In this document: positions 60,117 to 63,395 of the stretch, one piece after another
How positions within the stretch are numbered: the stretch's first letter is position 1
Layout of the letters: each line of letters starts with the position of its first letter
DNA from: an uncultured Pelagibacteraceae bacterium
GTDB taxonomy: Bacteria > Pseudomonadota > Alphaproteobacteria > Pelagibacterales > Pelagibacteraceae
Reading direction: 5' to 3'
Length of the DNA: 64,000 bases
NCBI GenBank assembly: GCA_902599625.1
Contig: CACKGF010000003.1
Span: forward strand, 1 to 64,000
Position numbers and translations under genes: made by a program
Notes under the pieces: model-generated
Seen by the model: only the letters and a program-made list of their open reading frames with translations
What the model was told of the DNA's origin: nothing
The model's database searches: none

Positions 60117-62012
60117 TTATTTAATAATATTATTCTTTATTAAGTCCTCTTTTATCTCACTCAAAATTGCTGGGTCATCAATTGTTGCTGGCATTTTATA
60201 CTCTTCTTTATCAGCAATTTTTCTAACAGTTCCTCTTAAAATCTTTCCTGACCTTGTTTTTGGCAGTCTTTTTACAACAATAGCAATTTTAAAAGCAGCA
60301 ACAGGACCAATTTTATTTCGAACCATCTGAATACATTCTTTTGATATAGTATCATTATCTTGACTCACACCAGCTTTTAAGGTGAGCAAGCCGATTGGTA
60401 ATTGTCCTTTAAGTTTATCAGCAATTCCAACCACAGCACATTCAGCAACAGATTTGTGCTCCGATAAAACTTCCTCGATCGCGCCTGTTGAAAGTCTGTG
60501 ACCGGCAACATTGATTATGTCATCTGTTCTTGACATTATCCAAATATAACCATCTTCATCAATATGACCTGCATCGTAGGTTTGGTAAAATCCATCATAG
60601 TTAGTCATATAATTATCTTTATATCTTTTATCGGCATTCCATAATGTAGGAAAAGTACCTGGTGGCAAAGGAAGCTTGACTACTATATCTCCCATTTCAT
60701 TAGCCTTTGCTATAGATTGATCTGGTTTAATTATTTTTACGTCGTATCCGGGGACAGCTTTACATGCTGAACCATATTTTGTTTTCATCATTTCTATTCC
60801 AGTACAATTAGAACTTATTGCCCAACTAGTTTCTGTTTGCCACCAATGATCAATTACTGGAACTTTGAGTAAATTTTCAGCCCATTTAATTGTATCCGGA
60901 TCTGCTCGTTCTCCTGCTAAAAATAATGACTCAAAAGAGCTTAAGTTATATTTTGAAAAAAAATTTCCTTCTGGATCTTCCTTTTTAATAGCTCTAAATG
61001 CAGTCGGTGCCGTAAATAAAGATTTAATTTTATAGTCTGAAATCATTTTCCAGAATGCTCCAGCGTCTGGAGTGCCAACTGGCTTTCCTTCAAACAAGAC
61101 TGTTGTGCAACCTTTAAACAAAGGAGCATAAACAATATATGAATGACCAACGATCCAACCAATATCACTGGCAGACCACCAAACGTCATCCTCATCAATG
61201 TTATAAATGTTTTTCATTGTCCATTTGAGAGCCACTATGTGACCCCCTATATCTCTCACAATTCCCTTTGGTACCCCGGTAGTTCCTGATGTATAGAGAA
61301 TATATGCATATTCATTTGAATTCATCTCTACACAATTAGTGTCTTTTGCATTTGACAAAGCTTCGTCCCAGCTAATTTCTTTTGGAGCGTTTAGTTTTAC
61401 TTCATGACCTTTTCTTTGAAAGAATATGACTTTTTCAACTGAGTGTTTAGCAAGTTTCAGCGCTCCATCTACAAGCGGTCTATATTCAACCGTTCTTCCA
61501 GGTTCAAAACCGCATGACGCAGTTATCAAAATTTTGGCTCTACTATCATCTATACGACTTGCAAGTTCATTAGAGGCGAATCCTCCAAACACAACTGAGT
61601 GAATTACACCTATTCTTCCACATGCCAACATAGCAACAACGGCTTCAGGCACCATTGGCATATAAATTATAGCCCTATCACCTTTTTGAAGTCCTTGATT
61701 TTCTAAAGCTCCTGCAAATTTTGAGACTTTTGATCTTAGTTCATTATAAGTAAACTTTGCCTTATTACCTGTAATTGGACTATCATAAATAAGTGCAATT
61801 TTTTCTCCTAAACCATTATCGATATGAAAATCAAGTGCATTATAGCAAGTATTTGTTGACCCATCTTCAAACCATTTGTAAAACGGGGGATTAGTTTTGT
61901 TTAAAATCTTTGTTGGTTTTTTAAACCAAAATATATCCTCTGATATTTCTCTCCAAAATTCCTCAGGTTTAGTTATAGATTTATTGTAAATTTGCTCAAA
62001 TTTATTGCTCAT
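60117..62012 (-). CDS. prpE: Propionyl-CoA synthetase (acetyl-CoA synthetase family)
   Basis: YILYTSGTTGVPKGIVRDIGGHIVALKWTMKNIYNIDEDDVWWSASDIGWIVGHSYIVYAPLFKG; EGKPVGTPDAGAFWKMI; LFTAPTAFRAIKKEDPEG. These read as PrpE rather than Acs. Confidence 0.88.
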   Translation of the reverse strand: MSNKFEQIYNKSITKPEEFWREISEDIFWFKKPTKILNKTNPPFYKWFEDGSTNTCYNALDFHIDNGLGEKIALIYDSPITGNKAKFTYNELRSKVSKFAGALENQGLQKGDRAIIYMPMVPEAVVAMLACGRIGVIHSVVFGGFASNELASRIDDSRAKILITASCGFEPGRTVEYRPLVDGALKLAKHSVEKVIFFQRKGHEVKLNAPKEISWDEALSNAKDTNCVEMNSNEYAYILYTSGTTGVPKGIVRDIGGHIVALKWTMKNIYNIDEDDVWWSASDIGWIVGHSYIVYAPLFKGCTTVLFEGKPVGTPDAGAFWKMISDYKIKSLFTAPTAFRAIKKEDPEGNFFSKYNLSSFESLFLAGERADPDTIKWAENLLKVPVIDHWWQTETSWAISSNCTGIEMMKTKYGSACKAVPGYDVKIIKPDQSIAKANEMGDIVVKLPLPPGTFPTLWNADKRYKDNYMTNYDGFYQTYDAGHIDEDGYIWIMSRTDDIINVAGHRLSTGAIEEVLSEHKSVAECAVVGIADKLKGQLPIGLLTLKAGVSQDNDTISKECIQMVRNKIGPVAAFKIAIVVKRLPKTRSGKILRGTVRKIADKEEYKMPATIDDPAILSEIKEDLIKNNIIK

Positions 62013-62090: not shown

Positions 62091-62178
62091 CAACCTAAAT
62101 TAGTCCTAAATAACTCTTCTAATAACCCTTTATATTTGGTATTAGGACCCAACTTTGATCTAAATTGAGTTTAGGTCG

Positions 62179-62196
62179 TAGTTTAAATTTAAACTA
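62179..62196. promoter_or_regulatory. 18-bp perfect palindrome TAGTTTAAATTTAAACTA about 30 bp upstream of the proteorhodopsin start codon
   Basis: Read directly; the sequence equals its own reverse complement. Confidence 0.6.
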
Positions 62197-62226
62197 ACAA
62201 AAAACTAACTAAAGAGGGAGTTTTTT

Positions 62227-63000
62227 ATGAATAAACTAAAACTGTTTGCATTAGCAGCATTAGCTCTAGTGGGCTTTGCTGGTACGGCAAACGCAGCAGA
62301 CACTGTTCTGTTAGCTACGGATGACCTTGTAGGAATATCATTTTGGTTGATTTCTATGGGTATGGCTGCAGCAACTGTCTTTTTCTTCATGGAAAGAGGT
62401 TCAGTAGCTGGTGGTTGGAAAACATCTATAACAGTTGCAGGTCTAGTAACAGGTGTTGCATTTGTTCACTACATGTACATGAGAGAAGTATGGATCATTA
62501 CAGGTGACTCACCAACAGTGTACAGATACATTGACTGGTTAATTACAGTACCGTTACAAATGATTGAGTTTTATCTAATATTAGCAGCGATAAGAAAAGT
62601 ACCTTCAGGAATTTTCTGGAGATTACTAATCGGATCAGTAGTAATGCTAGTAGGTGGATACTTAGGAGAAGCAGGTTACATCAACGCTACACTTGGTTTC
62701 GTAATCGGTATGGCTGGATGGATCTACATCTTATATGAAGTATTCTCAGGTGAAGCTGGTAAAGCAGCATCTAAGAGTGGTAACAAAGCACTTGTTACAG
62801 CTTTCGGTGCAATGAGAATGATCGTAACAATTGGTTGGGCAATTTACCCATTAGGTTACATTTTTGGTTACCTAACAGGTGGAATTGATGCAGCTTCATT
62901 GAACATCATTTACAACTTAGCTGACTTTATTAACAAGATCGCATTCGGTCTAGTTATTTGGGCAGCTGCAGTTTCAAGTACACCAGCGAGAGCTAGATAA
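62227..63000 (+). CDS. pr: Proteorhodopsin (light-driven proton pump), Q105-type
   Basis: Signal peptide, 7 TM; VHYMYMREVWI (His counterion), RYIDWLITVPLQMIEFYLILAA (Asp acceptor, Gln tuning, Glu donor), LADFINKIAFGLVIW (retinal Lys); SD-like gaggga upstream. Confidence 0.98.
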   Translation: MNKLKLFALAALALVGFAGTANAADTVLLATDDLVGISFWLISMGMAAATVFFFMERGSVAGGWKTSITVAGLVTGVAFVHYMYMREVWIITGDSPTVYRYIDWLITVPLQMIEFYLILAAIRKVPSGIFWRLLIGSVVMLVGGYLGEAGYINATLGFVIGMAGWIYILYEVFSGEAGKAASKSGNKALVTAFGAMRMIVTIGWAIYPLGYIFGYLTGGIDAASLNIIYNLADFINKIAFGLVIWAAAVSSTPARAR

Positions 63001-63015
63001 TTAAAATTATCTTAA

Positions 63016-63395
<380 letters not shown>

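Follow-up and report, generated by a model that had tools for sequence, protein, structure and literature searches.

A conserved structured leader RNA in front of SAR11 proteorhodopsin, possibly an ompA-like mRNA stabiliser

The proteorhodopsin (PR) mRNA of this Pelagibacteraceae genome begins with a cis-acting 5′ UTR leader RNA that has no match in Rfam, a reading strongly supported by comparison of related sequences. We put the probability that this leader works as an ompA-like 5′-terminal stabiliser, tuning ribosome access, at roughly one half. The window (the whole 64,000-nt stretch of DNA that was analysed) contains the PR gene next to a divergent prpE-like gene, with the features in Table 1 between and around them. 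The initial annotation had described three symmetric elements in the 214-bp gap between prpE (62012) and PR (62227), and all of its sequences and coordinates, including AGAGGGA at 62213–62219, proved exact. Of the functions that it offered, a cis-acting RNA is upheld for elements (ii) and (iii), here H2 and H3, and extends to a third stem at the ribosome-binding site that had gone unnoticed (H4), on the grounds of covariation, fixed adjacency, short distance from the transcription start site (TSS) and presence as one copy per genome at PR. It is not upheld for stem (i).

Table 1. Features of the prpE–PR intergenic region and its flanking genes (window coordinates)
Feature	Position	Strand	Remarks
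prpE-like acyl-CoA synthetase	60117..62012	-	divergent from PR
AT-rich upstream block TTGCATTTAATTTCAAAAAGCAAGTAAAATCAA	62061..62094	.	strand unassigned; conserved; promoter of the initial annotation
Stem (i), GTCCTAA/TTAGGAC	62103-62109/62142-62148	+	upstream of the TSS; closest clade only
PR promoter	62116..62145	+	−35-like CTTC 62116-62119; extended −10 TGGTATTAG 62137-62145
PR mRNA 5′ UTR, ~75 nt	62152..62226	+	5 unpaired nt, H2, H3, A-rich linker, H4; TSS transferred by alignment
H2 (stem ii), 5′-terminal hairpin	62157..62177	+	arms GATCTAAA 62157-62164 and TTTAGGTC 62170-62177; one G-U; 8-9 bp; sequence free, structure kept
H3, perfect 18-bp palindrome TAGTTTAAATTTAAACTA	62179..62196	+	RNA hairpin with 4-nt loop and/or DNA dyad
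H4, stem AAAAAACT/AGTTTTTT around the Shine-Dalgarno	62199..62226	+	paired arms 62199-62206/62219-62226 in the fold
Shine-Dalgarno AGAGGGAG	62213..62220	+	near-invariant in Pelagibacter
Proteorhodopsin (PR)	62227..63000	+	257 aa

Results

Conservation of the layout

The loci compared comprised 80 from named genomes and about 120 from genomes of the order. They were grouped by genus, with g1 denoting Pelagibacter, g5 and g6 two neighbouring genera and g2 a further genus; f2 denotes a family. A divergent prpE precedes PR in g1, g5 and g6 at a near-constant distance, with a mean of 212 bp in g1 and 227 bp in g5. Upstream of PR the order of elements is also conserved: the AT-rich block, the promoter pattern CTTC...TTTGnTAT, a hairpin of variable sequence, the palindrome, an A-rich linker and AGAGGGAGTTTTTTATG. 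The last of these is near-invariant in Pelagibacter, and exceptions at the Shine-Dalgarno (SD) include GATGGAG in L190. The H2–palindrome arrangement was not clearly seen in g9 (a single leader), g3 (four leaders) or family f2. A strong terminator-like intrinsic site lies directly after PR and before a ferredoxin gene (63020–63053), which suggests that PR is mostly a single-gene transcript. Neither a PR match nor a leader match was found in the fairly complete Pelagibacter genomes G040, G064, G110, G114, G121, G141, G160 and G171.

Transcription start and promoter

Hou et al. 2016 (PMC5069720, Table 2) mapped the start sites of a Red Sea community to HTCC7211, in which PR (PB7211_669) has its TSS at 529616, with 507 start-site reads and rank 10 among TSSs in situ. 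The PR coding match in genome G013 starts at 529690, which places this TSS 74 nt before the ATG. G013 was equated with HTCC7211 by coordinate agreement: the end of the PR gene agrees, and the leader of glcB, stated as 162 nt for HTCC7211 (PMC5069720), measures exactly 162 nt. Aligned to the window, the TSS corresponds to A62152, a position transferred by alignment from reads of a mixed community mapped onto another strain. In HTCC7211 an extended −10, TTTGTTATTTA, lies 7 nt before the mapped TSS (spacing 6–7 nt), and the CTTC...TTTGnTAT pattern is near-invariant within the genus Pelagibacter. Other HTCC7211 leaders measured from the same table span 0–31 nt, save the glycine-riboswitch leader of glcB.

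This start replaces the one near 62097 from which a UTR of about 130 nt had been proposed; it lies upstream of 62196, beyond which a start would have counted against the initial annotation. Because the TSS aligns to A62152, stem (i) is promoter DNA outside the transcript, with a 3′ arm that partly coincides with the −10 box. Being clade-specific and upstream of the TSS, it was rejected as part of the RNA.

The segment 62061–62090, previously taken as the PR promoter, is a conserved DNA element yet not the mapped promoter. In g1 the block that contains it reads TTGYATTTAATTTTAAAAAGTnAGTAAAATCAA, and it stands upstream of the −35-like CTTC, by 22 bp in most g1 loci and 21 bp in g5 and g6. It may serve PR as an activator site, or prpE as a promoter on the other strand. 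Its distances to prpE and to PR are both near-constant, so that spacing does not assign it to either gene.

Covariation in the 5′-terminal hairpin

In an alignment (A3) of 63 non-redundant Pelagibacter leaders, which was fitted to the structure model and thus leans towards it, H2 had changes on both sides at 8/8 modelled pairs, the whole-structure covariation score was 0.453 against 0.153 ± 0.012 in shuffles, and 97.6% of cells were paired over the whole structure, falling to 44–62% when the partner was slid by one column. Counted on a tree built from the PR protein, 49 same-branch changes occurred at paired columns, 41 of them from pair to pair (null 16.9 ± 3.4, maximum 30). Compensatory change, whose absence would have spoken against the annotated stems, is thus present in H2. 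Elements (ii) and (iii) are strongly conserved, while element (i) is confined to the closest relatives of the window.

H2 has some of the lowest column identities in the region, between highly conserved flanks. Since identity is low yet the mean z-score of H2 in g1 is −2.27, compared with −0.11 for the next 40 nt upstream, the structure of H2 rather than its sequence is kept; in g6 the signal is smaller (z −0.92). With few exceptions among about 170 leaders from g1, g5, g6, g2, g4 and g8, the palindrome starts 0–1 nt after a hairpin of unrelated sequence. This spacing is held even as the length of H2 differs between genera. Relative to the transferred TSS, 3–6 unpaired nucleotides precede H2 in 120/130 leaders, mostly 4–5, and the window has 5. 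In the g6 leaders L123, L124, L126, L180, L182 and L183 the loop of this hairpin, just upstream of the palindrome, carries a copy of the Shine-Dalgarno, GAGGGAGA, possibly a decoy.

Specificity of the leader

A covariance model of the leader (R2), searched against 197 genomes of the order, matched no genome more than once, and wherever the position of PR is known, the R2 matches listed end at its start. Among the Pelagibacter genomes listed, those that lack an R2 match also lack a PR match, except G164, whose PR is a contig-edge fragment. The sensitivity of R2 drops outside g1, g5 and g6, and absence of a match there is no evidence. A second match to the region in the genome itself was discarded as an A/T-rich chance match within an unrelated coding gene, and virus-borne copies of the Pelagibacter SD context were not found with an exact 27-nt pattern.

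At the leader no Rfam family reached its gathering threshold, the one hit being a tRNA elsewhere. PhotoRC-II RNA (RF01717) near the palindrome was rejected at 19.3 bits against a gathering threshold of 39 (E 2.6, opposite strand), and a riboswitch found no support, given the lack of an aptamer-like conserved core, the lack of an Rfam match at the leader and the free sequence of H2. A literature search confined to open-licence papers, with subscription papers and supplements outside it, found no description of the PR leader. The structured leaders of Ca. Pelagibacter ubique (SAM-V, glycine riboswitch, rpsB, rpsL and ffh motifs; Meyer et al. 2009, PMC2704228) are, like the PR leader, long and conserved where most leaders are short; the PR leader differs in that H2 lacks a conserved aptamer-like core. 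That survey targeted GC-rich intergenic regions, and its main text does not mention the PR leader, whose intergenic region has 27% GC.

The Shine-Dalgarno stem

Folding of the window leader (62152–62229) gave a minimum free energy of −18.3 kcal/mol (z −3.44) with H2, H3 and H4 all formed, H4 as a weak A/U stem. The pairing of H4 is kept across sequence changes, as AAAAACT/AGTTTTT in g1, GAAAACT/GGTTTTC in g5 and g6, and GAAACT/GGTTTC, a paired one-base loss. These amount to about two independent double changes, which makes the evidence for conservation of H4 moderate. One Pelagibacter subgroup (L028-like) and g2, g4 and g8 have a weak H4 or none.

Since H4 covers the SD, the leader could instead serve translational control, with a trans-acting factor (an RNA-binding protein or a small RNA) or temperature opening or closing H4, and H2–H3 as the recognition platform. 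The survival of H4 pairing through sequence change, the prediction that the SD and the spacer are partly paired at 5–37 °C, and the near-invariance of the palindrome arms and SD region are as this explanation expects. It is held back by the few double changes behind H4 and its loss in the groups named above, by the free sequence of H2, which argues against a protein or ligand reading that hairpin, and by the constitutive expression of PR in culture (PMC3090418). We consider such control possible, though on balance doubtful.

The palindrome

H3 is the only palindrome of at least 18 bp in the 64-kb window, and the chance of such a palindrome in a 214-bp stretch of the same composition is 0.3%. 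A palindrome of at least 16 bp is present in 139/139 g1 leaders, and one of at least 14 bp in 27/27 g5 and 6/6 g6 leaders. No variation occurs in its arms within Pelagibacter; in g5 and g6, arm positions that change from A to G form G-U pairs. The form in g2, g4 and g8 is TTTTTTGTTTAAACAAAAAA. In most f2 leaders an A/T palindrome of another kind, TAATTTTATAAAATTA-like, adjoins an AAGGGG ribosome-binding site (L136, L137, L138, L139, L213–L215, L217), and the palindrome is absent from g3 leaders.

The cores found were GTTTAAATTTAAAC, GTTTATATAAAC, GTTTATATATAAAC, GTTTAATATTAAAC, GTTTATTAATAAAC, ATTTATTAATAAAT and GTTTAAAC, all palindromic to the centre, with a G-to-C core span of 8, 12 or 14 bp. 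About nine core changes were placed on the PR tree, and the innermost 4 bp were palindromic after every one. Two apparently non-palindromic core states (L115, L196) were mis-detections inside H2; both leaders have a TATA-centred palindrome. Because RNA stems tolerate changes in loop sequence, the full symmetry of the centre is not explained by a hairpin alone. The adjacency of the palindrome to H2, moving with the length of H2, favours a role at the RNA level, and a further action as a DNA dyad is possible.

One tentative proposal, which we hold to be unlikely, is that the centre-symmetric palindrome is read as a two-fold object, either by a dedicated dimeric regulator or through pairing of two PR mRNAs, and that the adjacent free-sequence hairpin presents it at the 5′ end; the leader would then be an undescribed kind of composite element setting SAR11 PR output.

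Also unlikely is that the palindrome serves as a DNA operator, bound at about +28 to +45 by a dedicated regulator through its two-fold symmetry, with H2 a separate element. Arms invariant within the genus and a symmetry that was kept through the innermost 4 bp, needless for an RNA loop, are what such a site would show. The variation in core span, however, is of a kind that usually breaks dimer sites, and the G-U pairs produced by the arm changes also count against an operator. Moreover, the palindrome keeps to 0–1 nt from an H2 of variable length, so its place follows the RNA, not a set distance from the promoter. No second copy was found in the own genome, the pattern was not commoner than its reversed control over the genomes searched, and no regulator gene is present among the listed neighbouring ORFs. 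A palindrome regulon was rejected on the same single copy, which leaves no other gene in that genome with this site before it. The light or redox operator suggested by the initial annotation found no direct support, given this single copy and PR expression that is unaffected by light in culture (PMC3090418).

Leaders resembling an attenuator

In the g2 PR leaders L130, L131, L186 and L187 a U run comes after a GCGA..UCGC hairpin and a CGC lies upstream of it, an attenuator-like arrangement. That H2 is a leader terminator with regulated formation is very improbable: a U run directly follows the H2 equivalent in g2, g4 and g8, and the upstream CGC of g2 is able to base-pair with the hairpin's 5′ arm in antiterminator-like fashion (a GUCGC/GCGAC stem in L130), but H2 has no U run in Pelagibacter or the window, no terminator was called in the window leader, the H2 equivalents of L132 and L130 were likewise not flagged by the terminator scan, and PR is among the most transcribed genes.

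Discussion

In the stabilising reading that we prefer, H2 and H3, stacked at the extreme 5′ end, would shield the PR mRNA from 5′-end-dependent decay, in which RppH acts and then RNase E, and would hold the ribosome-binding region in a defined context. The outcome would be a long-lived, highly translated PR mRNA, as with the ompA 5′ UTR in E. coli. Reviews describe how a folded 5′ end makes mRNA more stable, since RppH and RNase E then find no single-stranded terminus (PMC3997798), and how a strong SD has a stabilising effect on ompA (PMC7509114).

Like the 5′ UTR of E. coli ompA (other such stabilising stem-loops are those of papA and of bla carrying an appended hairpin), the PR leader places stem-loops at the 5′ end of a highly abundant mRNA for a membrane protein and follows them with a strong SD. 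As in ompA-like leaders, a stem-loop stands within a few nucleotides of the TSS and its pairing rather than its sequence is maintained. RppH and RNase E, common to the ompA system and the host of the PR leader, are represented in the own genome by genes for RNase E/G and RppH. The PR leader differs from ompA in its sequence, in its 4–5 unpaired 5′ nucleotides, in the invariant palindrome abutting the first hairpin and in an SD that lies inside a stem; stabilisation here is proposed by likeness. The geometry, the free sequence of H2, the high abundance in situ and the constitutive, light-insensitive expression of PR in culture (PMC3090418) fit a stabilising leader.

Some features are less easily accommodated. 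The B. subtilis RppH needs at least 2 unpaired 5′ nucleotides and prefers at least 3 (PMC3997798), and the 4–5 present here may leave room for RppH. A pure stabiliser also does not account for the invariant palindrome arms, the symmetric centre, or the pairing of H4 with the ribosome-binding site.

In the surface ocean, SAR11 PR is one of the very abundant genes for light harvesting, and its mRNA ranks near the top in situ. The 75-nt element, retained in streamlined genomes in which the remaining leaders measured mostly span 0–31 nt, is a concrete, testable cis element for PR expression, and the covariance model marks PR transcripts in metatranscriptomes.
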